DNA of 64,000 nt from an uncultured Lachnospiraceae bacterium. Lineage in GTDB: Bacteria > Bacillota > Clostridia > Lachnospirales > Lachnospiraceae. The notes under the pieces are model-generated. The model saw only the letters and a program-made list of their open reading frames with translations, did not search any database and was not told where the DNA came from. The position numbers and the translations under genes were made by a program. Where the stretch lies: NCBI GenBank assembly GCA_947382625.1, contig CANDAG010000020.1, forward strand, positions 1-64,000, in the 5' to 3' direction. The stretch's first letter is position 1, and each line of letters opens with the position of its first letter. Below, one piece after another: positions 13,512 to 26,022 of this stretch.

Positions 13512-14984
13512 TTATTCTTTCAGGGCAGCACGCAGTGCGTCGCTGTCGGATTTGATCTGATTTACCCAATCATCTTTGGACTTGTCGCCGGTTACAAGAG
13601 AGTTGACCGGATCAAAGAAGGTTGCACGGGTAGTGATACCTTCCACAGGCTCTGTTGCTGCGAATGCATCCATAACTGCAACTGCGCCGGTATCATAGAT
13701 GGCGTAGTAGAGCTTGTTGTCGCCGTCAAGCTTGTCTGTCATTCCCTGGATCGGCTGAACAGCGCCGCTCTTGGCAAAGATTTCTGCTGCTGCATCAGAG
13801 TAAAGGAAAGCGATGAACTCTTTTCCAAGATCCTGATTCTCTGCGCCTGCCGGCATCCATACCTGCTCGAAGAAGGAATAGGAAGCTCTCTCTCCGCCTT
13901 CAGTAACTGCGGGAAGTGCTGTAAAGCCCCACTCAAAACCGTCAGCTCTGGGTGCTTCTGCCATTTCTCCGATTACCCAGTTTCCGTTAGGCATGAATAA
14001 TGCCTTGTCATCTAAGATCAGCTGCTGGTTCTTCTGGAAATCATTGTCGTTGGCGTTGGCAGGAGTGGTGGACTCTGTATAGGAAGCCAGCTTAACAATG
14101 ATATCAAATACAGTCTGAGCTTCCGGGGTATCCCAGATGCCTTCGCCGTATCTTAAAGCTTCCTGGAACTTGTCATTTCCCATGCTCTCATGGAGCAGTG
14201 CATAAAAGAATGCGTCAAAGTATCCGGCGGTAGGATAAGTAAACAGCGCAATGCCTTCTTCTTTAGCCTTGTCTCCTAACTCCCACATTTCATCCCATGT
14301 TTCAGGAACTTCCCAGCCCTTGGCTGTGAACAGACCCTGGTCGAAGAACAGACCGCAGGGGCCGTAGAACATAGGCATGAGATAAGTTTTGCCATCGCTG
14401 TAAGGATTGCAGATGGAATTTTCTACAAAGCCCGGTAAGATCTTGTCACCAACTGTGGTGCTCTCGCCGGGAACTGTCATGGAAAGTACGTCTGTCAGAT
14501 CCACCAGGTTGTTGTCCTTTACGAAGGTTTCGGTGAGACCGGATGCTGCGCCTACTGCACGTAAGATCACATCAGGATATACACCGGACTTCATCTCGGG
14601 AGTGATAACATCCTCAAGATTCTTGTCAACTGTCAGTTCTATGGTGACTCCCTCATGACTCTCTTCAAAAGCGGCACATACCTCTGTCCACATATCTGCG
14701 CCGTACGCTGTTTCTACGGCAGCAACCTTCAGAGTTCCGGTGACTGCAGCGCCTTCGTCGGAAGCGCCTTCGTCGGAAGCGCCTTCGTCGGAAGCGCCTT
14801 CATCGGCCTCCTGGCTTTCCGCGTCATCCTGCGCAGTAGTTTCTTCTTCTGCGCTTCCTGTATCCTCAGTGGAAGCGGCATCCTCGGTCTTGCCGGTGTC
14901 TGTTGAGCCGCTGCCTCCGCAGGCTGCTGTACCGACTACCATCATGGCCGCCATTAAGATACATAAAACCTTTTTCATTTTCAT
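13512..14984 (-). CDS. Extracellular solute-binding lipoprotein of the GH112 sugar importer
   Basis: A 490-residue family-1-type binding protein. Residues 1-22 form a lipoprotein signal ending GTAAC, with the lipidated cysteine at 22. A long Ser/Thr/Asp/Glu linker follows, including four near-identical five-residue EGASD/EGAAV units, and holds the receptor away from the membrane. The binding domain then runs from about residue 83 to the end, with typical segments such as FFDQGLFTAKGWEVPETWDE. It delivers sugar to the two permeases encoded downstream. GGGAGG precedes the ATG; the MKKV two codons later is an equally good start. The divergent AraC gene is the likely regulator. Confidence 0.9.
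   Translation of the reverse strand: MKMKKVLCILMAAMMVVGTAACGGSGSTDTGKTEDAASTEDTGSAEEETTAQDDAESQEADEGASDEGASDEGASDEGAAVTGTLKVAAVETAYGADMWTEVCAAFEESHEGVTIELTVDKNLEDVITPEMKSGVYPDVILRAVGAASGLTETFVKDNNLVDLTDVLSMTVPGESTTVGDKILPGFVENSICNPYSDGKTYLMPMFYGPCGLFFDQGLFTAKGWEVPETWDEMWELGDKAKEEGIALFTYPTAGYFDAFFYALLHESMGNDKFQEALRYGEGIWDTPEAQTVFDIIVKLASYTESTTPANANDNDFQKNQQLILDDKALFMPNGNWVIGEMAEAPRADGFEWGFTALPAVTEGGERASYSFFEQVWMPAGAENQDLGKEFIAFLYSDAAAEIFAKSGAVQPIQGMTDKLDGDNKLYYAIYDTGAVAVMDAFAATEPVEGITTRATFFDPVNSLVTGDKSKDDWVNQIKSDSDALRAALKE
14749..14808. repeat. Tandem 15-bp repeat inside the solute-binding-protein linker
   Basis: Four head-to-tail copies of a 15-bp unit (GCGCCTTCGTCGGAA on the plus strand), the last slightly diverged. 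The unit length keeps frame, so copy-number change would only alter linker length. Confidence 0.85.
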
Positions 14985-15348
14985 AGCGATTACCTCCCTT
15001 TCAAACTATGCATTGTAGCTTCGGTTTCCTAAAGTATAACACCCATATGGCGGGATACTACTCATATATTGCTGTATTTTTTATATATCTTGCTTTCTGA
15101 TTCTCGCTGTGATATGATTTATTTGTATAAAAAATATGAAAATAAAGGGAGAAAATGTATTTATATGCAACATTTGCGTTAAAATAAACAACATATTTTA
15201 TACAAATTGCATATGGAAAGCTGAAAGAGCTACAAAGGAATCTGTATGCATTGAAATTTGCCCGTTTTTTAGACTTTGATAAATATCTAAATTCTGGAAA
15301 GGCCTGAATTTTTGTTTTATAATAACGAAATCATACAATTAACCGACC
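14985..15348. other. Divergent control region between the GH112 operon and its AraC regulator
   Basis: AT-rich intergenic DNA serving both directions. A TATAAT at 15318-15323 is a candidate -10 for the AraC gene. On the minus strand a TATACT-like box lies about 50 bp upstream of the solute-binding-protein start, without a good -35 element, as expected for an activator-dependent promoter. I see no clear symmetric operator. Confidence 0.4.
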
Positions 15349-16212
15349 TTGCAGAACCAAAGGAGGTGTCTTCAGATAGGAACTTCAATTTATTCCATCG
15401 ATCATGCGTTTACAGATGCGACGCAGAATAAGCTGCTTTATATTACCCACTCCAGATATGAAAACGACTGGCACAGCCATCCCCACATCCATCCCTTTAC
15501 CGAATTGTTTTATGTAAAGGACGGCATGGGGAGCTTTCTGGTGGAAGAAAAGGAATACGCCATCCAGAAGGACGATTTCGTGATCGTCAATTCCGGAATC
15601 TCCCATACGGAGATCTCCTCCGGCGAGAAGCCTCTGGAATACGTGACCATCGGGATGGAGGGCGTGGGTTTTTCCTTTGAGGGAAACAAGGAACACATCA
15701 TTTTCAGCTGCAAAAATGAAAAGAAGGATCTGCTTTTCTGCATGGACGCCATGCTCAGCGAAATGGAAGAAAAAAACAGGGACTGTGAGATCGTCTGCCA
15801 GAACCTTCTGGAGGTGCTGATCATCAAGCTGATCCGCAGGACCAATTTCGCCTTCGAGGTGGCCTCTGCCGCCCAGATCAACAGAGAATGCATCAAGATC
15901 AAGCGATACATTGAGGCAAACTATATACAGAACATCACGCTGGATTCCCTGGCAGAGATTTCTCATCTGAATAAATATTATCTGGCTCACTCCTTTACCC
16001 TGCACTGCGGCTGCTCGCCGATCCGCTATCTGTGCCAGATCCGCATCAACGCCAGTAAGGAGCTGCTTGCCAACACGGACTACAGCATCACGGAGGTGGC
16101 GCATTATGCGGGATTTTCTTCTCAGAGCTACTTCGCCCAGAGTTTCTTAAAAAGCTGCGGGCAGACGGCGTCTGCTTATCGGAAGGCGTGTAAAAAGAAG
16201 AAGGGGGAATAG
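15349..16212 (+). CDS. AraC family transcriptional regulator with cupin sensor domain
   Basis: An N-terminal cupin-like sugar-sensing domain (HSHPHIHPFTELFYVKDG, then a beta-barrel) is followed by a C-terminal AraC DNA-binding domain with two helix-turn-helices (LDSLAEISHLNKYYLAHSF and ITEVAHYAGFSSQSYFAQSF). It is divergent from the GH112 operon and probably activates it in response to the disaccharide. The start is odd. The open frame begins at TTG 15349 without a ribosome binding site, while a perfect AAAGGAGG at 15359-15366 points to codon 15376, which is ATA. Either a rare ATA start is used or a start codon was mutated. It ends 9 bp before the defence helicase, where composition shifts sharply to AT-rich. 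Confidence 0.85.
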   Translation: MQNQRRCLQIGTSIYSIDHAFTDATQNKLLYITHSRYENDWHSHPHIHPFTELFYVKDGMGSFLVEEKEYAIQKDDFVIVNSGISHTEISSGEKPLEYVTIGMEGVGFSFEGNKEHIIFSCKNEKKDLLFCMDAMLSEMEEKNRDCEIVCQNLLEVLIIKLIRRTNFAFEVASAAQINRECIKIKRYIEANYIQNITLDSLAEISHLNKYYLAHSFTLHCGCSPIRYLCQIRINASKELLANTDYSITEVAHYAGFSSQSYFAQSFLKSCGQTASAYRKACKKKKGE

Positions 16213-16221
16213 GAATATATT

Positions 16222-19155
16222 ATGGAAAACAGAGAAGCTAAAATAAAAAAATTACAACAGGGCTTTGGCACTGCTTTTGTAGACAGCACATACAATTCAA
16301 ATCTGGCATATCGTCCAGAGTTTATATCAAATGATTATAAAAGAGGCAAAAAGGTATTGGCGTCTATTGAACAGGAATTGTCCAATTGTGATGAATTTTG
16401 CATTAGTGTGGCTTTTATTACAAAAAGCGGAATAACTCCTTTGCTCCAGATTTTGGAAGAACTGGAGAGAAAAAATATACCAGGGAAAATACTTACAACA
16501 GACTATCTGATGTTCAGTGATCCATCCGCTCTTGAAAAGCTGGCAGCATTAAGAAATCTTGAGCTTAGAATGTTTTGTACTGATTCGGAAACCGGTGGAT
16601 TCCATACCAAAGGGTATATTTTCAGAAAGGAAGAAATATACCGTATTATCATCGGAAGCTCCAATATGACATTAACTGCGGTTACCAAAAATCGGGAGTG
16701 GAACACGAAGCTTGTATCTACAAAAGAAGGAGAAATTGCGCAAAGTATTCTGGGAGAGTTTGGTGAATTATGGAATAGTAAGCACTCAAAAAGATATGAT
16801 GAGTTTTTTGAGGAATATAAAGTAAAGTACAAAATTGTAAAAGAGCAACAGCGAACTGCCCAAAAGGAGCAGATAGTTGGCTTCGAGCAATATACGTTAA
16901 CGCCTAACAAAATGCAGATTGCTTTTACAGAAAACCTTATGAAAATGAGGAGAAATAATGCTGAGCGTGCTCTTTTGATAAGCTCCACAGGTACAGGGAA
17001 AACATATGCCTCTGCATTTGCGCTTAGAGAGATGCAGCCGAGGAAGGTCTTGTTTTTGGTCCACCGTGAGCAGATTGCAAAGCAGGCGGTTAAGAGCTAT
17101 AAAAAGGTATTTGGTAATACCAGGAAGTTTGGCTTGCTTTCTGGTACAAGTAAAGAACTGCAGGCGGATTATCTTTTCTCTACAATGCAGATGATGTCAA
17201 AATCGGAAATATATACGCAGTTTGCGGCAGATGAATTTGATGTGATCGTAATTGATGAAGTACATCATGCAGGGGCAAGCAGCTATCGGAGAATCATGGA
17301 TTATTTTAAGCCCCAATTTTGGCTTGGAATGACGGCATCTCCGGATACGAATCAGTATGATATATATTCGATATTTGATCATAACATAGCGTATGAAATT
17401 CGCCTGCAGCAAGCGTTGGAGGAGGATTTGCTGTGTCCGTTTCATTATTTTGGAATTACAGATTTAGAACTTAATGGACAAGTATTTGATGATAATACCG
17501 GTGTACGAAACTTTAATGCCTTGGTTTCTGAGGAACGAGTGAAGTATGTGATCGAAAAGGCCGAGTATTATGGCTTCAGCGGCGAACGAGTAAAAGGTCT
17601 TGTTTTTTGCAGTAGAAAAGAAGAAGCGAAGGAGCTGTCGGAAAAGTTCAATCGCTTTGGATACAGGACAGAGGTGCTGACAGGCAAAGATAACCAGGAA
17701 AGGCGTGAGAGGGTAATTGAAAGATTGGTGGATGATGAAGATATCAATCATCAATTAGATTATATTTTCACGATAGATATTTTTAATGAAGGTGTAGATA
17801 TACCGGAAATCAATCAGATTATTATGCTTCGACCAACAGAATCCCCTGTTATATTTATTCAGCAGTTGGGGCGTGGTCTGCGTAAATTTGAAAATAAAGA
17901 ATATGTAGTAGTACTTGACTTTATTGGTAATTATATGAACAATTTTATGATTCCGATTGCGTTGTCGGGAGATCGTTCTTATAATAAGGATACGATTCGG
18001 AGGTATGTTATGGAGGGCTCCAAAGTAATTCCCGGGAGTTCAACAATTCACTTTGACGAAATATCTAAGAAACGTATTTATGCATCCATAGACACAGCGA
18101 GAACAAATGATTTAAAATTGCTGAGGGAATCCTATCAAAGTCTGAAATATAAGCTTGGAAGAATACCGACTCTTAACGACTTCAAAGAATATGGCTCTAT
18201 TGATATCACAAAAATTTTTGATAAGTGCGGTTCCTATTATGCTTTTTTGGTTAAATATGAAAAGGAATATAATGTAAGGCTGGGTAAAGCAGAGGAGAGT
18301 ATCATTGAGTTTTTGTCTAAGAAGGTGTTATCCTATAAAAGGGTTCATGAGCTCGCGCTGCTAAAGCATTTAATGCAATATGATGATAGAACACTGGCAT
18401 ATTTTAAAGCCTTAATGAAACAAAAATATCAGATTAATATATCAGCAGCCATAGAAAGCTCTGTTGTCAGAAATCTTACAAATGAGTTTCCGAAAGAGGA
18501 AGAAAAAAAGAAATATGCGGAGTGCGTTTTGATTGAAGCGTATGAACATAATGGATATCGGATTTCAAAGGATTTTTGGCAGAGACTGCGAAATAAAGAG
18601 TTTGCAGCTATGGTTACGGAATTAATTGATTTCGGAATTGCAAGGTATTTTGAATACTATTCCGATGCTTATAAGGATACAAATTTTCAGTTATATCAAA
18701 AATATACATATGAAGATGTCTGCAGATTGCTTAATTGGAAACGCAATATGAATGCGCAAAATATTGGCGGATATTTTTATGATGAAGCTACCAAGACGCT
18801 TCCGGTGTTTATAAACTATGACAAATCACATGATGCCATTGCATATGAGGATAGATTTATATCGGAAAGCGAGCTAATAGCTCTCTCAAAGCATCCCAGA
18901 AAAGTGACATCCAGTGATGTTACGCATATTTATAAGCGGAGTGAAGAAGATGAGGATAACCGCATTTTCTTATTTGTGAGAAAGAATAAGGATGACAATG
19001 AGGCGAAGGAGTTTTACTTTTTAGGTGAGATATTTGCAGAAGGTGACCCATACCCGATTCATATGGAATCTACAAATGACGATGCCTTTGAAATTATGTA
19101 CCGTTTGGATGTACCAATCAGAACCGATATTTATGATTATATCGTAAATGGATGA
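16222..19155 (+). CDS. PLD-nuclease / SF2 helicase / DUF3427 fusion protein
   Basis: A 977-residue multidomain protein. Residues about 20-190 form a phospholipase-D-like nuclease domain with an HxK motif (His128, Lys130) and the later GSSN (145-148), as in HKD nucleases. Residues 230-600 form a superfamily 2 helicase: Walker A STGTGKT (255-261), DEVH box (345-348), GMTASPD motif III region, and QQLGRGLRK motif VI. The C-terminal region matches the DUF3427 type that follows such helicases. Proteins of this build are common in defence islands and are thought to process foreign DNA, but the mechanism here is inference. The gene lies 9 bp after the AraC gene and is followed after 25 bp by a Nudix gene, a recurring partner. 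Confidence 0.85.
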   Translation: MENREAKIKKLQQGFGTAFVDSTYNSNLAYRPEFISNDYKRGKKVLASIEQELSNCDEFCISVAFITKSGITPLLQILEELERKNIPGKILTTDYLMFSDPSALEKLAALRNLELRMFCTDSETGGFHTKGYIFRKEEIYRIIIGSSNMTLTAVTKNREWNTKLVSTKEGEIAQSILGEFGELWNSKHSKRYDEFFEEYKVKYKIVKEQQRTAQKEQIVGFEQYTLTPNKMQIAFTENLMKMRRNNAERALLISSTGTGKTYASAFALREMQPRKVLFLVHREQIAKQAVKSYKKVFGNTRKFGLLSGTSKELQADYLFSTMQMMSKSEIYTQFAADEFDVIVIDEVHHAGASSYRRIMDYFKPQFWLGMTASPDTNQYDIYSIFDHNIAYEIRLQQALEEDLLCPFHYFGITDLELNGQVFDDNTGVRNFNALVSEERVKYVIEKAEYYGFSGERVKGLVFCSRKEEAKELSEKFNRFGYRTEVLTGKDNQERRERVIERLVDDEDINHQLDYIFTIDIFNEGVDIPEINQIIMLRPTESPVIFIQQLGRGLRKFENKEYVVVLDFIGNYMNNFMIPIALSGDRSYNKDTIRRYVMEGSKVIPGSSTIHFDEISKKRIYASIDTARTNDLKLLRESYQSLKYKLGRIPTLNDFKEYGSIDITKIFDKCGSYYAFLVKYEKEYNVRLGKAEESIIEFLSKKVLSYKRVHELALLKHLMQYDDRTLAYFKALMKQKYQINISAAIESSVVRNLTNEFPKEEEKKKYAECVLIEAYEHNGYRISKDFWQRLRNKEFAAMVTELIDFGIARYFEYYSDAYKDTNFQLYQKYTYEDVCRLLNWKRNMNAQNIGGYFYDEATKTLPVFINYDKSHDAIAYEDRFISESELIALSKHPRKVTSSDVTHIYKRSEEDEDNRIFLFVRKNKDDNEAKEFYFLGEIFAEGDPYPIHMESTNDDAFEIMYRLDVPIRTDIYDYIVNG

Positions 19156-19180: not shown

Positions 19181-19585
19181 ATGAAAAAAATTGAAGTAGT
19201 GGCAGCAATCATTCAAAAAGACCGGAAAATTTTTGCAACACAGAGGGGATATGGGGAATTCAAGGATGGCTGGGAATTTCCCGGCGGGAAAATAGAATCG
19301 GGAGAATCTCCACAGCAGGCATTAGTCCGCGAAATAAGAGAAGAGCTGGATACAGAGATTGAGGTGGGAGAATTGATTGAGACGGTAGAGTATGATTATC
19401 CTCAGTTTCATTTAACCATGCATTGCTTTTGGTGCACGATTAAAAGCGGAGAGTTGATATTGAAGGAGCATGAAGCGGCAAAGTGGCTTACAGCAGAAGA
19501 ATTGGAAAGTGTGGATTGGCTTCCGGCGGATTTGGGAGTGGTCGAGAAGCTTAAATGTCAATGTGCAAACGTAGCCACGGAGTAG
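19181..19585 (+). CDS. MutT-like Nudix hydrolase, partner of the PLD-helicase
   Basis: A 134-residue Nudix protein of the MutT / (d)CTP-diphosphatase type. The box is GGKIESGESPQQALVREIRE continuing ELDTEI, with all metal-binding glutamates present. The opening MKKIEVVAAIIQKDRKIFAT is typical of MutT. The family hydrolyses (oxidised or modified) nucleoside triphosphates. It lies 25 bp after the helicase gene with its own AAAGGATGG site, so the two form one unit. A duplicated remnant 1.2 kb downstream also joins helicase to Nudix, showing the pair has travelled together. A role in defence, such as acting on nucleotides during infection, is inferred from context. Confidence 0.85.
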   Translation: MKKIEVVAAIIQKDRKIFATQRGYGEFKDGWEFPGGKIESGESPQQALVREIREELDTEIEVGELIETVEYDYPQFHLTMHCFWCTIKSGELILKEHEAAKWLTAEELESVDWLPADLGVVEKLKCQCANVATE

Positions 19586-19712: not shown

Positions 19713-20654
19713 TTAAACGGGTAGAGAATCAACAATTTTTTTCACAAATCCATAAATTCCCTTTATTTTGGTATTGGATTTGAAATAGTCGGCATGTTGC
19801 GTCATCCGTTTTCCAAAAAGTTCCTGTATTTCCTGATGGCGTTTAGTTTTTGCCTTTCCGTCCGGAACAACAGTGCCGTAAATATATAGCAATATTACAA
19901 AACTGTAAACAACGCGGTAATTCAGGTTTTTTGCCCTGGATGATGGAGAAATTCCGGACACACTTTTCACATAATTAGATATAGCGCTGTCTATCTGCTG
20001 TTTGGGATTTAGTGGCGCAAACAGCTTATTGATCAGGCAATTACTATGGGCGGCTGCATTTCTCATATCGCGGACGGTGTTCATAAATTTATTGTTCACA
20101 ATTTGCTCTGAGTATAATTCATCGTAAAAGGCAATGAGGTATGTCAAATCGCCAAAAGAAATTAGTTCTACAAATACCCAGACAGGGAAATATGGATAAT
20201 ATTTTTCTATTAGGTCTTTGCAGTAATCACTGGATTTATGTCCGCGGATTTTCTTCAGTATATACTCGTTTTGCGCCTGACCCTTGGAATTTGTATATCC
20301 AATGAACTTGCGGATGAGTTCGTATCCATCTTCCTGAGGATTATTTTCAACATGTGTGATCAGAGATACTTTCAAAGCATGTTCGATATCAAGGCACATT
20401 TGCATGATTAAGTATCTAAGGTGCATGTCAATGGTTGAAAGTTCCTTCAGGTAAGCAAAATCCAAATTTATGTATTGCCCGGTTTTGGCACCAGTAAGAT
20501 ATTTGGGATAATTTGCCCGATAGGAGGCGAGTTTCATGTAATAGTTACTATTTTGAAGAAAGACTTTGGCATCATCCTCAGACACAGTATTGAAGGTAAT
20601 GCCCTTTTCTTTCATGTGCTCAATCAAATCGTCTATTGACAGGAGTAATTTCAT
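19713..20654 (-). CDS. Abi family (AbiD/AbiF-like) abortive-infection protein with HEPN motif
   Basis: A 313-residue member of the Abi_2 group. Diagnostic parts are the N-terminal LNS/NSNYYMKLASYRANY region, the DMHLRYLIMQMCLDIEHALK helix and the HEPN ribonuclease-type motif R-N-A-A-A-H in RDMRNAAAHSNCL near residue 200. Relatives block phage by killing or arresting the infected cell; RNA cleavage by the HEPN motif is the likely activity. ATG 20654 is preferred over the TTG two codons earlier because GAGGG lies just upstream. It has its own promoter (20696-20724). It is inserted, reversed, between the helicase-Nudix pair and a decayed copy of that pair. Confidence 0.85.
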   Translation of the reverse strand: MKLLLSIDDLIEHMKEKGITFNTVSEDDAKVFLQNSNYYMKLASYRANYPKYLTGAKTGQYINLDFAYLKELSTIDMHLRYLIMQMCLDIEHALKVSLITHVENNPQEDGYELIRKFIGYTNSKGQAQNEYILKKIRGHKSSDYCKDLIEKYYPYFPVWVFVELISFGDLTYLIAFYDELYSEQIVNNKFMNTVRDMRNAAAHSNCLINKLFAPLNPKQQIDSAISNYVKSVSGISPSSRAKNLNYRVVYSFVILLYIYGTVVPDGKAKTKRHQEIQELFGKRMTQHADYFKSNTKIKGIYGFVKKIVDSLPV

Positions 20655-20695
20655 TCGCAACCCTCATTTCGAAAGTTTTTTTCTTATTATATCCG

Positions 20696-20790: not shown

Positions 20791-21116
20791 AAATCACATG
20801 ATGTCATTGCATATGAGGATATAGATTTATAACAGAAAGCGGGTTAATAGCGCCCTCAAAGCATCCCAGAAAAGTGACATCCATTGATGTTGCGTATATT
20901 TATAAGGGGAGTGAAGAAGACAAAGATAACCGCATTTTCTTGTTTGTGAGAAAGAATAAGGATGACCATGAGGCGAAGGAGCATGAAGCGGCAAAGTGGC
21001 TTACACCAGAGGAAATGGACAGTGTGGATTGGCTCCCGGCAGATTTGGGAGTGGTCGAGAAGCTTAAACGCCAGTGTTCAAACGCAGCCGCAGAGGTATC
21101 TCCGCGGCTGCGATAA
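20791..21116 (+). pseudogene. Decayed duplicate of the helicase tail fused to the Nudix tail
   Basis: This stretch is a diverged copy of helicase codons near 18823-19011 joined directly to Nudix codons near 19462-19585. The junction falls in GAAGGAG, present in both parents at 19005-19011 and 19462-19468, so the 457 bp between them were removed by deletion across a 7-bp direct repeat. A one-base insertion near 20821 breaks the helicase part. The ending differs from the intact Nudix by several added residues. No start signal is visible. It shows that a second helicase-Nudix cassette once sat here. Confidence 0.85.
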
Positions 21117-21129
21117 AGCATCTCTTGCT

Positions 21130-22527
21130 TCAGAATTCCGCATACAGCCGATCTATTTCATCAAATTCCTTCTGGAGATTGTCCTGAATGCGCTCCTCGA
21201 TGTATTCCTGTCTGATCCGGGCAATGAACCGGACATCCAGGAAAAGATGAGACACTGTGTTCAGCAGGCTCCCGATGTCAAGGTTCTTGGGGTTAGATGT
21301 GATTGCTGTATTGATAATTGTGCTGGCAGACGCGATGGAACTGGAAACGAGCAGGATTTTTCGTGTGCGGACTTCATAAATATTCTTTGGAACGTCTTTG
21401 CCGCGAAAGAACCCATGAACAAGCCCGATGATCATGTCGATCAGGGCAGACACAACAAAAGAAGCTCCAACTATTTTGGCATCCCGCGAAAAACAGAGCG
21501 CATCATAATGTTCTTTATAAAGCCGGCTTGCAAATTGTTCATTGATAGCAGAGAGCACCGGAACAGGAAGCCCCATTTTGGTAAACTCGTCTGATTTTAA
21601 ATGCTGGGCCTGGGCAAAGACTGCCGCCGGAAGATTCAGCCAGTCATTTTTGATCTTCCAATAGCTTTCCTGAACCATGGAAGCGATTGAGACAGGTTCG
21701 GGGGTGATGACCATAGGGGTGCGTTTGACCCGGCGTGACTGGAAGGTGTTTGTCGTGAGGATGTCTGTCAGGATGTTCATTGTACCGAACAGCCAACCAA
21801 GCACAGGATCGTGCCCTAAGGTATACAATCGATGCTGTCCTCCGTGGAGCTCAATTCCGGCGGCGGGAGCCCCTTTTGTAATGTCATAGGGCGGCGTTCG
21901 ATATAGCATCTCAATCCACTCTCCGGTTTTGCCTTCATTTTTTTCCAGAATTTTATCCCGGAAGGTGTCATTGGCTTCTCGCTGTGCGTCTTTGATTGAC
22001 TTATCATTATGTGAAAGGCGTGTGTCCGGGTCGAAGGCAGTTCCATACCCGGCCTTTTCTGCGATATAAGGAAAGAGCAATGCCTTTGTTACCTGCATTG
22101 CCGTTGCAACAGCAAGAAAAGACAGATCAGTCTTATTGATCAGGCTCGTCTGCCGGGAGAACTCCCTGTTGATGGAGTCCAACTCGAGAAAAGACGCAGC
22201 AATCTCATCGGGGGACATGATGTCTTCCAATACCACTGGATCGGGGCAATATTCATTGGCCTGACGGACAATTTCGTCCCAGTTTTCCAGCTTTGGACAA
22301 TGCTCTGATCGGTGTTCGGTTGACCTGACCTCCTTGGTCAATTCGGCAGTTTCTGAACCTTTACCGAGATTGGACAATATTTCCAGAGACGAGCCTATAT
22401 TTGCATCTGCTTCTGCTCTGGTATCATCCATTGGTCTGTTGTGAAGCATACTATTGGAGATATCCTGATTCATTTTCAGAACCTTATTCAAATCTTTTTC
22501 CTGATCTGAATATTGGAATTGGCTCAT
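21130..22527 (-). CDS. Unrecognised 465-residue membrane-associated protein of a two-gene module
   Basis: I do not recognise this family. Residues 1-110 are acidic and polar. A middle region contains conserved-looking blocks GGQHRLYTLGHDPVLGWLFG and MNILTDILTTNTFQSRR. Hydrophobic segments occur around residues 130-155 (LSFLAVATAMQVTKALLFPYI), 365-385 (IVGASFVVSALIDMIIGLVH) and 405-425 (LLVSSSIASASTIINTAI), so two to four membrane helices are likely. The tail is a charged helix. It follows the 182-residue Gly/Ala-rich gene by 20 bp and shares its promoter. Its position between an Abi gene and other defence genes suggests a membrane effector or sensor. The start has GGAGG upstream and is secure. 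Confidence 0.6.
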   Translation of the reverse strand: MSQFQYSDQEKDLNKVLKMNQDISNSMLHNRPMDDTRAEADANIGSSLEILSNLGKGSETAELTKEVRSTEHRSEHCPKLENWDEIVRQANEYCPDPVVLEDIMSPDEIAASFLELDSINREFSRQTSLINKTDLSFLAVATAMQVTKALLFPYIAEKAGYGTAFDPDTRLSHNDKSIKDAQREANDTFRDKILEKNEGKTGEWIEMLYRTPPYDITKGAPAAGIELHGGQHRLYTLGHDPVLGWLFGTMNILTDILTTNTFQSRRVKRTPMVITPEPVSIASMVQESYWKIKNDWLNLPAAVFAQAQHLKSDEFTKMGLPVPVLSAINEQFASRLYKEHYDALCFSRDAKIVGASFVVSALIDMIIGLVHGFFRGKDVPKNIYEVRTRKILLVSSSIASASTIINTAITSNPKNLDIGSLLNTVSHLFLDVRFIARIRQEYIEERIQDNLQKEFDEIDRLYAEF

Positions 22528-22547
22528 AATGATGTCCTCCCTATAAT

Positions 22548-23096
22548 TTAAACTATGCCCAAATCATGCTGTAAGTCCTTGATAGCGGCTTGCAGAAGGA
22601 TATTTAATCTGTTCAGATAGTCAATCCGTTCTTTGTCCGCAGCGGTTTCTTCTTTGAGGGCCTTCAAAATAGCAGTTTGCTTTGCAATAGCGTTCTTGTA
22701 GACCAGCTCTTTGGCCTGGCGCAGATTTTTGTTTTTTACATGAGAGGCAACGCCTACTCCGATCCCGCCAAGAACAGCAGCGGGAGCCGCCAGCACGGCG
22801 ATGCCGGCCACCATGCCGCCTCCAATGAGGCCTCCTGCCGCCGCAAGACCGCTGGTGATTCCGGCAGCGCTCAGCCCGACAACAGACCCGCCCAGATAGA
22901 GCCCTGCAAACCCCATTGCAGCCCCTGCGCCTACCCCAAGCGCACCGGCAAGGGCTTCACCGATAGGGGAATCTGCTATCTTTCTTGATTTGTCATGCAA
23001 AGCCAGATCCGCATCGTCAATAACGCTTTGCACTGTTTTCAGTGCGTCCTGACTTTGAAATTTCATGTCTGCTTTTTTGGTAACATAGCTTCCCAT
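22548..23096 (-). CDS. Gly/Ala-rich glycine-zipper membrane protein, first gene of the two-gene module
   Basis: A 182-residue protein of unknown function. Residues 1-45 are polar and helical. Residues about 46-118 are a long Gly/Ala/Val-rich hydrophobic block with repeated G-x-G and GxxxG spacing (for example GALGVGAGAAMGFAGLYLGG), as in glycine-zipper membrane or pore-forming proteins. The last 60 residues form a charged, probably coiled-coil helix. It is preceded by AGGAGGT and a clear promoter and followed 20 bp later by the 465-residue membrane protein. A pore or membrane-remodelling subunit is my inference; no family is recognised. Confidence 0.6.
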   Translation of the reverse strand: MGSYVTKKADMKFQSQDALKTVQSVIDDADLALHDKSRKIADSPIGEALAGALGVGAGAAMGFAGLYLGGSVVGLSAAGITSGLAAAGGLIGGGMVAGIAVLAAPAAVLGGIGVGVASHVKNKNLRQAKELVYKNAIAKQTAILKALKEETAADKERIDYLNRLNILLQAAIKDLQHDLGIV

Positions 23097-23121
23097 TTTA
23101 CTGACCTCCTAAATGTCTCTG

Positions 23122-23150
23122 ATTATAGCATGGTTGCCGTCAGGAGACAA
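23122..23150 (-). promoter_or_regulatory. Sigma-A promoter of the two-gene membrane module
   Basis: On the minus strand TTGTCT (23150-23145) and a perfect TATAAT (23127-23122) with a 17-bp spacer, about 25 bp before the start codon. The short leader leaves little room for a repressor site downstream. Confidence 0.7.
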
Positions 23151-23751: not shown

Positions 23752-24513
23752 ATGATACATGAAACATTAGATCAGAAATCAGAGCCATTATTGACGCCGG
23801 AGGCATTTTATGGGAAGCATGAAAAAATATGTGATGTGTGTGTGATCACGTTTTCCTGTAAGGTGATCGAATGGGCACTGCAAAATTTAAGCTGTGAGAA
23901 AGTGGCGGAGATCGGATGCTGTAATGGCAATCGTCCCATCTATCTTACGGAGTGGAAAGGAAAGAAAATTGCCTTTTATATGACTTTTGTTTCCTCTTCA
24001 GGGGCGGCAACCTGTCTGGAGGAGGTCCGTTGCCTCACCGGATGCAGGGATTATGTAGTATTCGGTTCCTGCGGGACGTTAAATGGTCAGCTGACAGATG
24101 GCAAGCTGATCATTCCGACCCATGCATATCGTGACGAGGGGCTATCCTATCATTATATTGCCGCGTCCGAATATATTGAAATGAAGGATTGGAAAAAGGT
24201 CGCCGATTTCATGGAAGAGAGAAAGATATCCTATCTGACAGGACGTACATGGACTACGGATGCCCTTTACCGCGAAACCTCCGGGAAAGCCGCGAAGCTG
24301 CGAAAAGACGGATGCATCACGGTGGAAATGGAGCTTGCAGGCCTGCAGGCTGTATGTGAGTATCATGGCCTGTCATTGCAGGCATTTCTGTTTGCTAGCG
24401 ATTACCTGGATTCGGAGGACTGGCATAATGAGCTGCTGGGAAGTGAGCATGAATGGGATATGCAGATTAAGTGTTTCCGGTTGGCGCTGGATTTATTCAA
24501 ATCTCCTTCCTGA
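23752..24513 (+). CDS. Nucleoside phosphorylase (PNP/UDP family)
   Basis: A 253-residue member of the PNP_UDP_1 superfamily. Supporting segments are the phosphate/ribose-binding strand VVFGSCGTLNGQLTDGKLII, the Thr-rich TGRTWTTDALYRET loop, and ITVEMELAGLQAVCEYHGL, where the Glu-Met-Glu triad contacts ribose. The final FLFASDYLDSEDW corresponds to the purine- or uridine-binding strand. The reaction is reversible phosphorolysis of a nucleoside; base preference is not clear. Its last 17 bp overlap the convergent AAC(6')-like gene. It may be simple salvage, or, in this neighbourhood, a nucleotide-pool effector. Confidence 0.8.
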   Translation: MIHETLDQKSEPLLTPEAFYGKHEKICDVCVITFSCKVIEWALQNLSCEKVAEIGCCNGNRPIYLTEWKGKKIAFYMTFVSSSGAATCLEEVRCLTGCRDYVVFGSCGTLNGQLTDGKLIIPTHAYRDEGLSYHYIAASEYIEMKDWKKVADFMEERKISYLTGRTWTTDALYRETSGKAAKLRKDGCITVEMELAGLQAVCEYHGLSLQAFLFASDYLDSEDWHNELLGSEHEWDMQIKCFRLALDLFKSPS

Positions 24514-24931
24514 AGCAAATAATACGATTGGCTTCCTCGAATCCCATTGCCAAATGAAATTTGAGACTGTCGATATTATCTATTTCACAGTCGCTTGCAA
24601 ATTCGGAGCATTCCTTCTCCTTTGCCCATCGCTGGCATTCCTGCAGTAGCTCCTTTGCAAAGCCTTTATGCCGGAATTCCTGCTGGATGAAGATTCCTTC
24701 CAGATAGCCGACAGGAGATGTTTCCGTACCTTCCACATAATCATACCTGAGCTGGCACTGTGCAAAACCGATCGGCTGATTCTCCACATATTTAATAAAG
24801 CATGCAGCATTTTGGCTGCTGATAATTTCTGCAAAATCTGTTTCCAGTTCGGATAGTGTGTGGCTGTCCCACATTTGTATGGCTAATTTGGCTAAGGTTA
24901 GCGCATCGGCGCCAGTTGCCTGTTTGATCAA
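24497..24931 (-). CDS. Aminoglycoside 6'-N-acetyltransferase-like GNAT
   Basis: A 144-residue GNAT that reads like the AAC(6')-I group: FAQCQLRYDYVEGTETSPVG, YLEGIFIQQEFRHKGFAKEL (acetyl-CoA loop RHKGFA) and CSEFASDCEIDNIDSLKFHL then MGFEEANRIICF. In that group the enzyme acetylates the 6'-amino group of aminoglycosides. Function in this host is unproven, and anaerobes are intrinsically little affected by these drugs. The open frame extends to 24952, but AGGAGG lies inside the extension, 8 nt before TTG 24931, so MIKQATGADA is the likely N-terminus. It overlaps the convergent nucleoside phosphorylase by 17 bp. Confidence 0.75.
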   Translation of the reverse strand: MIKQATGADALTLAKLAIQMWDSHTLSELETDFAEIISSQNAACFIKYVENQPIGFAQCQLRYDYVEGTETSPVGYLEGIFIQQEFRHKGFAKELLQECQRWAKEKECSEFASDCEIDNIDSLKFHLAMGFEEANRIICFRKEI

Positions 24932-25136
24932 AATAGTTTCCTCCTGTCTCAAAATTTGAAATTTGTTGTAACACCGGATACAATAAACTTGGAGTGAGTT
25001 TCTACATCCTCTAACCTTATTTTATTAAAAAAATATTTTTCGTCAATAAGAACAAAATTATAAAAATTTCATAATTTACTCACTGTTCCGGATTATATAT
25101 AAGTGGTATACTATAAACATAAAGGAGGGCGGAGAA

Positions 25137-25568
25137 ATGGCAAATGTATTTGATACAGCAAAATATATTCTGGAGCAAAGCGGTTCCATGTCAACGATGA
25201 AACTTCAGAAGCTGTGCTATTACTCTCAGGCATGGTCGCTTGTCTGGGACGATTCTCCTTTATTTGAGGAGGACTTTCAGGCATGGGCGAATGGTCCGGT
25301 ATGTCCTGAACTGTTCTTTAAGACAAAGGGGAAGTATTCTGTAAATGCCGGAGATGAGACCGGTGGTGAAGAAGACTTGTCCGATGATCAAAAGGATACT
25401 ATTGATAAAGTATTAGAGCATTATGGCAGCCACAATGCTCAGTGGCTCAGCCAATTGACACATATGGAAGATCCCTGGATCAAGGCGAGAGAGGGTGTTC
25501 CGTCAGGGGCAGGGTGCAATAATGTGATCACAAAAGAAAGCATGGCATTATATTATGGCGGGCTCTAA
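25137..25568 (+). CDS. Panacea-domain (DUF4065) antitoxin
   Basis: A 143-residue protein of the SocA/GepA group, now called Panacea. Diagnostic features are the opening VFDTAKYILEQ, MKLQKLCYYSQAWSLVW and the ANGPVCPELF segment. In characterised systems this domain neutralises several unrelated toxins and is encoded just before the toxin. Here it overlaps the next gene by 14 bp, the standard antitoxin-toxin layout. AAAGGAGGGCGGAGAA precedes the ATG, and a TATACT box at 25107-25112 is the probable -10. Autoregulation is likely but no operator is obvious. Confidence 0.85.
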   Translation: MANVFDTAKYILEQSGSMSTMKLQKLCYYSQAWSLVWDDSPLFEEDFQAWANGPVCPELFFKTKGKYSVNAGDETGGEEDLSDDQKDTIDKVLEHYGSHNAQWLSQLTHMEDPWIKAREGVPSGAGCNNVITKESMALYYGGL

Positions 25569-26022
25569 ACGAAAAAAAGAAGTAAAACATAAAGAACTTT
25601 CTGATGGAAAACGTATCGCTCAGGGTGGAGATCCTGAGCGATATTATTCGGAGAATCCAGCATGGACCTTTGCAAACTCAGATCAGGAGATGTGGGCATT
25701 CTCGCAGGATCACCTGGGAGAATTGGTTTGGACAGAGATATTACCCAGATTAAAATCCTTAGAAACGCAGACCTGGAGTGAGATATTAGTCAGAGACAAA
25801 AAACAAAATCACTCGTTGGATCTGAACGAATTAAACAAGGTTGCCCAAGACAGACTGGCTTCAAAATATATAGAAGCAGAGTCATTGATATCCCTAAGAG
25901 TAACAGGTAATCATAGATTATACGGGTACATGACGGGAAGAGTTTTTAATATATTGTGGTATGATGATGACCATGGTGATAACAGCAAGTGTGTATGCAG
26001 ATCTTATTTGAAACATACATAA
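25555..26022 (+). CDS. Putative toxin paired with the Panacea antitoxin
   Basis: A 155-residue basic protein. The N-terminal 30 residues are Lys-rich. A middle part has EMWAFSQDHLGELVWTEILP, and the C-terminal domain contains LNKVAQDRLASKYIEAESLI then SLRVTGNHRLYGYMTGRVFN and ILWYDDDHG. This C-terminal pattern recurs in proteins next to DUF4065 genes and looks like a small RelE-like or related fold with conserved His/Arg/Trp. The start overlaps the antitoxin gene by 14 bp in another frame, so the two are translationally coupled. The toxin's target is unknown. Confidence 0.65.
   Translation: MAGSKRKKEVKHKELSDGKRIAQGGDPERYYSENPAWTFANSDQEMWAFSQDHLGELVWTEILPRLKSLETQTWSEILVRDKKQNHSLDLNELNKVAQDRLASKYIEAESLISLRVTGNHRLYGYMTGRVFNILWYDDDHGDNSKCVCRSYLKHT

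Follow-up and report, generated by a model that had tools for sequence, protein, structure and literature searches.

A probable short-form Bunzi gene pair in a defence island of an uncultured Lachnospiraceae bacterium

Gene layout and upstream signals

The window, i.e., the whole 64,000-nucleotide stretch of contig CANDAG010000020.1 that was analysed, carries two adjacent genes on the minus strand, named here after the PADLOC Bunzi models that they match. The pair, its upstream signals, and a neighbouring defence gene were located as follows:

19713..20660, minus strand: AbiD-like (Abi_2) gene, a neighbour outside the module (Pfam Abi_2, 4.3e-26; PADLOC AbiD, 2.4e-28)
21130..22527, minus strand: bnzB-type gene, 465 aa (PADLOC BnzB match and relatives)
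22548..23096, minus strand: bnzA-type gene, 182 aa (short N-terminal helix, glycine-zipper hydrophobic core, and helical-hairpin tail)
23104..23110, minus strand: ribosome-binding site AGGAGGT of bnzA (read off the sequence)
23122..23150, minus strand: promoter-like site TTGTCT-17-TATAAT upstream of bnzA (pattern scan)

The bnzA-type gene lies upstream of the bnzB-type gene, and a gap of 20 bp (22528-22547) separates them, compared with a median spacing of 14.5 bp in 46 relatives. An earlier note on this DNA had given open reading frames of 182 and 465 residues 20 bp apart; the lengths and the gap were correct, and the strand, which it did not give, is the minus strand. The promoter with 17-bp spacing that it had described also exists in the right place (TTGTCT at 23150, a 17-nt spacer, and TATAAT ending at 23122, with 10 of 12 matches and a TG before the -10 element), but the pattern alone was not above chance, as a scan of 2.4 kb returned five sites against 3.2 ± 1.6 in shuffled sequence. 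The site is plausible by its position upstream of the AGGAGGT of bnzA. In comparisons with three relatives, the dN of both genes was 0.08-0.20 (0.08-0.14 for bnzA) and the pS was 0.70-0.86, so that synonymous differences were near saturation; the low dN at this level of synonymous change indicates that bnzA and bnzB are real genes under purifying selection.

Defence island and neighbouring genes

All the flanking genes claimed previously were found, namely, the AbiD-like gene, a nucleoside phosphorylase, an AAC(6')-type acetyltransferase, Panacea, and the Wadjet genes for JetA and JetC. Judged by the AbiD-like, Wadjet, and Panacea matches, the pair sits in a genuine defence island. The acetyltransferase (24497-24952) belongs to AAC(6') group E, scoring 199.9 bits against an NCBIfam cut-off of 140. 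The Panacea (SocA-like) gene overlaps a gene for 155 aa with weak NsnC and MAG6450 matches (25137-26022), and the two look like a toxin-antitoxin type pair. Adjoining both the Abi gene and the pair is a partial duplication (20791-21095), in which a decayed copy of the end of a DUF3427 helicase gene (18823-19011) is fused to that of a NUDIX gene (19462-19582) at 88-91% identity.

For the surroundings of relatives, 29 pair loci supplied 172 neighbours, of which 135 were compared with 135 of 155 control genes; the control genes came from 20 contig starts, five of which were short. Defence genes showed no clear excess near the pair loci, with single matches on both sides among the best 25 of 85 and 58 families, respectively. 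The earlier note had proposed a co-occurrence search near known defence genes; the pair was found to be conserved together, but defence families were not clearly enriched around these 29 loci. WYL genes made up 11 of the 135 pair-locus neighbours and were not among the control's best 25 of 58 families. A WYL gene stood within 700 bp upstream in 6 of 46 loci with a strong BnzA match, 3 of 14 with a weak match, and 5 of 39 without BnzA; as it is present in few loci and absent from the window, it is optional. WYL regulators of defence loci are a topic of published work.

The BnzA-type protein

Two parts of the 182-residue protein were delimited:

22752..22970, minus strand: glycine-zipper core, residues ~43-115 (hydropathy and invariant Gly columns)
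22560..22757, minus strand: C-terminal helical hairpin, residues 114-179 (AlphaFold helices 114-149 and 155-179)

The protein is 45-86% identical to 45 relatives, with invariant Gly columns in the core, and its Gly/Ala-rich hydrophobic middle spans residues ~43-115. In the AlphaFold model (mean pLDDT of 65), residues 70-119 are without a resolved fold, and the helices at 114-149 and 155-179 are fairly confident from about residue 121, where the block pLDDT is 73-88. Hydropathy and the model thus bore out the earlier description of a glycine-zipper protein with a tail, and this glycine-rich protein looks membrane-inserting. A sequence search of the PDB gave two unconvincing matches only (PurE, 0.0053; an uncharacterised protein, 0.093), and NCBIfam gave only nickel_Mua at E 0.015, far below the cut-off. 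A presumed likeness of the core to Ifi-6-16 (PF06140) was rejected, since none of 10 genomes or records matched at E up to 10.

The core was also found in larger proteins. It is fused to Sel1 repeats in L174 and to an ADP-ribosylglycohydrolase in the viral contig L188 (4149-5528; core E 9.7e-80, PF03747 1.4e-36), where BnzB follows. A weaker case is L055, in which TerB scored 25.8 bits (cut-off 24.4) and the BnzA core appeared only with filters off (E 5.8e-5). Because the core is joined to Sel1 or ADP-ribosylglycohydrolase in relatives, we interpret it as the constant part of the system, a membrane module to which different inputs can be attached.

Several further gene arrangements were recorded. 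In L197 (1817-2461), another of the weaker fusion cases, an XRE-like start, recognised by eye, is joined to a BnzA-type zipper, and the 4.85-kb contig holds no BnzB. A third small gene, which resembles the BnzA tail and not the zipper, lies between BnzA and BnzB in L050 (9248-9622), L157 (3018-3416), L168 (5610-6008), and L070 (1306-1653). In L082 (2359-3144), BnzA has an ADP-ribosylglycohydrolase gene just before it, a macro-domain gene follows BnzB in L159 (4853-5401), and genes of both kinds (9627 and 11725) lie within ~6 kb of a BnzA-less BnzB relative in L172. ADP-ribosylglycohydrolase or macro-domain matches occurred in four records in 1.70 Mb and in none in a 0.21-Mb control of 20 loci, which is eight times smaller and too small for a statement on enrichment.

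The BnzB-type protein

Two regions of the 465-residue protein were considered:

22183..22527, minus strand: N-terminal part, residues 1-115 (the extension that goes with a BnzA-type neighbour)
21589..22128, minus strand: span of the conserved polar residues D134, D215, H232, H239-D240-P241, H309, and D313 (identical in 23 of 23 rows of alignment A1)

Alignment A1 comprised the window protein and 22 relatives gathered without the motif; L046 (partial), L052 (a chance match, acetolactate-synthase-like by eye), and L055-L059 (BnzB by PADLOC only) were left out. D134, D215, H232, H239, D240, P241, H309, and D313 were identical in all 23 rows. The GHDPVLGWLFG block, earlier called conserved-looking, is indeed conserved, with H239, D240, P241, G244, and G248 being the same throughout. 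The conservation claim uses the 22 relatives of A1, as loci L072-L174 were picked by an HDPxxG pattern and the HDP block is conserved there by construction; in this motif-selected set, D134, D215, H232, H239, D240, H309, and D313 were each present in 93 or 94 of 94 rows. Alignment A3 took in 93 of 99 BnzB references.

The His/Asp set is not universal, as five further loci matched by the PADLOC BnzB model differ. L057-L059, which are far matches to the profile (two of ~800 aa), have His in place of D240 (HHP, not HDP) and keep two His and an H-x2-S-D block, and L055 (a short piece) and L056 have no such motif. The conservation of these polar residues suggests that most members of the BnzB family have a metal or catalytic centre. 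No enzyme homologue was found by a PDB profile search (best E 0.86, no match) or by hhalign against YdjM. The latter comparison, prompted by a common H-x3-D-x5-G motif, used a profile from 30 YdjM sequences; homology to this YdjM/DUF457-type membrane hydrolase (PF04307) was rejected, as the scores of 17.3 and 16.1 lay within the range obtained by shuffling, in which 60 column shuffles gave a median of 13.6 and five top values of 17.3-22.0; the reversed profile scored 16.1.

The several membrane helices previously ascribed to this protein were weakly supported. Kyte-Doolittle averages over 19 residues revealed two hydrophobic segments (~349-373 and ~391-409), but no other windows exceeded 1.6.

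Association of the two genes

The 103 BnzB loci that were fetched (L072-L174) were reduced to 101 by dropping two identical copies. A BnzA-type neighbour was present in 60 of them (46 strong and 14 weak matches), none was detected in 39, and two ended at a contig edge. Starting from BnzA, 22 of 24 viral loci had BnzB within 515 bp downstream (in one case split in two pieces); of the other two, one had a 72-residue piece of BnzB only and one had no BnzB. These 24 loci include several near-copies, and many are records of the BnzB viral-contig scan; not all are independent. The pairwise distances of BnzA and BnzB covaried over 43 pairs (r of 0.72, with 0 of 5000 permutations as high), to which shared ancestry may contribute. 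The mean identity over these pairs was 59% for BnzA versus 39% for BnzB. The earlier claim of a conserved two-gene, membrane-linked, defence-type module was upheld, as the two genes accompany each other in viral contigs and in hosts that are not related.

The presence of BnzA was associated with an N-terminal extension of ~60-70 residues in BnzB. Of the 46 loci with a strong BnzA, 41 were aligned, and all of these had 117-149 residues before D134; of the 39 loci without BnzA, 35 were aligned, and 30 of these had 48-104. The five exceptions have small unassigned neighbours, which may be divergent BnzAs. Where BnzA is absent, the BnzB core can stand next to other proteins, some of which are dynamin-like ([Eubacterium] eligens plasmid; L133). 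In L041, L047, L067, L068, L095, L133, and L151, BnzA-less BnzB relatives are followed by proteins with a common GAxPFExKF-type start, some of which are dynamin-like.

Distribution

A single-sequence search of the family sample gave a BnzB-like match in 15 of 397 genomes, the window's own included, the weakest of which (E 4.5e-4) is probably a chance match. Profile matches in the phylum sample numbered 10 of 398 genomes, own included, and two of these were weak (E 6e-4 and 9e-4). Within the genus, 3 of 37 genomes had a BnzB-like match, again counting the window's own; in the two others, BnzA was 60-65% identical, and BnzB was 22% identical over its full length in one and 34% over 104 residues in the other. 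A single-protein search of genome contigs found no relatives. Alignment-based scans yielded 253 from the genome contigs, 80 of which were retained, and 23 from viral contigs. The titles of the relatives' records include Bacillota, Bacteroidales, Spirochaetales, Treponema, and Desulfovibrio. The occurrence of the pair is patchy, with relatives also in phage records, viral contigs, and plasmids.

Of the 37 genomes of the genus, 18 had matches to the left flank of the island (14000-16200). The gene at 15349-16212 was kept in the three best of them (G791, G828, and G831), and none of the window's island genes followed in the fetched stretches beyond, one of which was shorter than 2 kb; the island is therefore not fixed at this place in the genus.

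Assignment to Bunzi

The pair had been described as unrecognised; this did not hold, as both proteins match PADLOC Bunzi models. The BnzB match (E 2.8e-27) runs nearly end to end, with residues 10-454 aligned to profile positions 45-492 of 504. The match of the 182-aa protein to BnzA (E 3.5e-11) covers only the glycine-rich core at positions 296-408 of 544, and the positions on either side are without a match; the N-terminal part of ~290 residues of full-length BnzA is absent. The two genes are adjacent and co-directional in the order bnzA-bnzB, as in Bunzi, and most of the length of the BnzB profile is covered, which is not so for BnzA. A match of one protein to a well-known housekeeping family, which the earlier note had named as counting against its reading, did not turn up in Pfam or NCBIfam.

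The link between the two forms of BnzA was examined in both directions. A profile of the short BnzA found the 549-aa BnzA of L249 at 301-389 (E 2.2e-7), within a common stretch most of which lies in the core, and hhalign of the short and full-length BnzA gave a probability of only 15%. The link rests on the Gly-rich stretch, and a stronger case is made by the location of the gene beside BnzB. A TerB domain is listed for Bunzi in PMC10952713. Neither window protein matched Pfam TerB at E up to 1, and no such match was reported at E up to 0.1 for the full-length BnzA of L249, where the domain is perhaps too divergent for Pfam.

The window pair is very probably a Bunzi variant. Because the N-terminal part of BnzA is missing, we classify it by sequence as a short-form variant rather than a canonical member. 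The Bunzi and BnzB literature, represented mostly by titles, yielded no description of a short form.

Proposed mechanism and alternative explanations

The best overall explanation, to which we assign a probability of roughly 0.4, is a short-form Bunzi locus in which a BnzA of core and tail is followed by BnzB, with BnzA as the membrane platform and BnzB as the executor. The mechanism proposed for it is tentative. BnzA would form a Gly-packed assembly of helices in the cytoplasmic membrane and hold BnzB through the N-terminal extension of the latter. A phage-caused cue, perhaps at the membrane, would be passed to BnzB, whose His/Asp centre would act at or near the membrane by a metal-dependent or enzymatic action and so stop the infected cell or the phage.

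This division of roles is favoured, as the conserved His/Asp residues of BnzB would allow it to be an enzymatic executor. A pore made of BnzA, with BnzB as its gate, comes close in probability, given that BnzA is the better conserved protein (59% versus 39%), and this could equally mark BnzA as the effector. BnzA would then form a glycine-zipper pore and make the membrane of infected cells permeable, and BnzB would be its gate and phage sensor, a possible arrangement that agrees with the invariant Gly columns of the core. This reading refines the idea of the earlier note, which had inferred a pore-forming or membrane-disrupting effector pair that is possibly abortive. A constant effector with a varying sensor would also be expected to show the conservation found in the two other genus genomes, where BnzA was far closer to the window protein than BnzB was. 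However, no BnzA was detected by profile in 39 of the 101 BnzB loci, the pore leaves the conserved polar residues of BnzB without explanation, and the AlphaFold model has no resolved fold for residues 70-119.

It is unlikely that the pair acts early, by blocking entry or injection at the cell surface or membrane without cell death, for which the partners of membrane type at several loci, some of them dynamin-like, and the phage resistance conferred by a Bacillus dynamin (PMC8844932) would speak. The lack of a clear excess of defence families among the 135 neighbours of the 29 pair loci is what would be expected of a pair that serves in membrane stress or housekeeping and is in a defence island by chance. 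Such a non-defence role is nevertheless improbable in view of the matches to Bunzi models, the patchy occurrence in the family and genus, and the relatives in phage records, viral contigs, and plasmids.

A broader proposal goes beyond the platform-and-executor reading and is doubtful. The glycine-zipper core would be an exchangeable immune executor or platform on varied inputs (Sel1, ADP-ribosylglycohydrolase, probably TerB, and XRE-type HTH), BnzB would be an unrecognised family of metal-dependent enzymes that act at the membrane with interchangeable partners, and some branches would be wired to ADP-ribose chemistry (the L188 fusion; the genes near BnzA or BnzB in L082, L159, and L172).

The short form points to a smallest conserved set of a ~182-aa membrane core and BnzB. 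It provides specific BnzB residues and a specific N-terminal extension as targets for testing, and a first clue to possible inputs comes from the domain fusions.

Comparison with known systems

The anti-phage system Bunzi was reportedly first described by Millman et al. in 2022. Its occurrence has been reported since (PMC12482510, PMC11305592, and PMC11206119), and its mechanism is listed as unknown in a 2026 review (PMC12926258).

The PADLOC candidate PDC-M09, for which a literature search gave no paper, touches this family through PDC-M09A, which is matched by BnzB neighbours in L053, L054, L055, L120, and L122. The window proteins matched neither PDC-M09A nor PDC-M09B at E up to 1. Short BnzAs match LeoBC weakly, and some BnzB relatives adjoin dynamin-like proteins, which recalls LeoABC and dynamin-like systems; the window pair differs in having no GTPase, and its LeoBC match reached only E 0.16.

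A second short pair was found in L248, on the enterobacterial IncHI2A plasmid pK29, with proteins of 165 and 462 aa, a core-only BnzA match (E 1.6e-6), and a BnzB match (E 6.5e-53). Unlike in the window, a HipA-family toxin gene is annotated nearby, and the BnzB of L248 is a more distant relative of that of the window. A Lactococcus plasmid (L066) carries a short BnzB relative adjoining a pair of 549 and 513 aa, the sizes seen in L249, after a WYL gene. The closest point of reference is the full-length Bunzi of L249 on the Lactococcus plasmid pUCCL635A, whose BnzA (549 aa, E 1.8e-126) and BnzB (513 aa, E 5.4e-153) both match the PADLOC models. The window pair shares with it the gene order, the tight spacing, most of BnzB, and the glycine-zipper region of BnzA, whereas its BnzA has 182 aa compared with 549 aa in L249.
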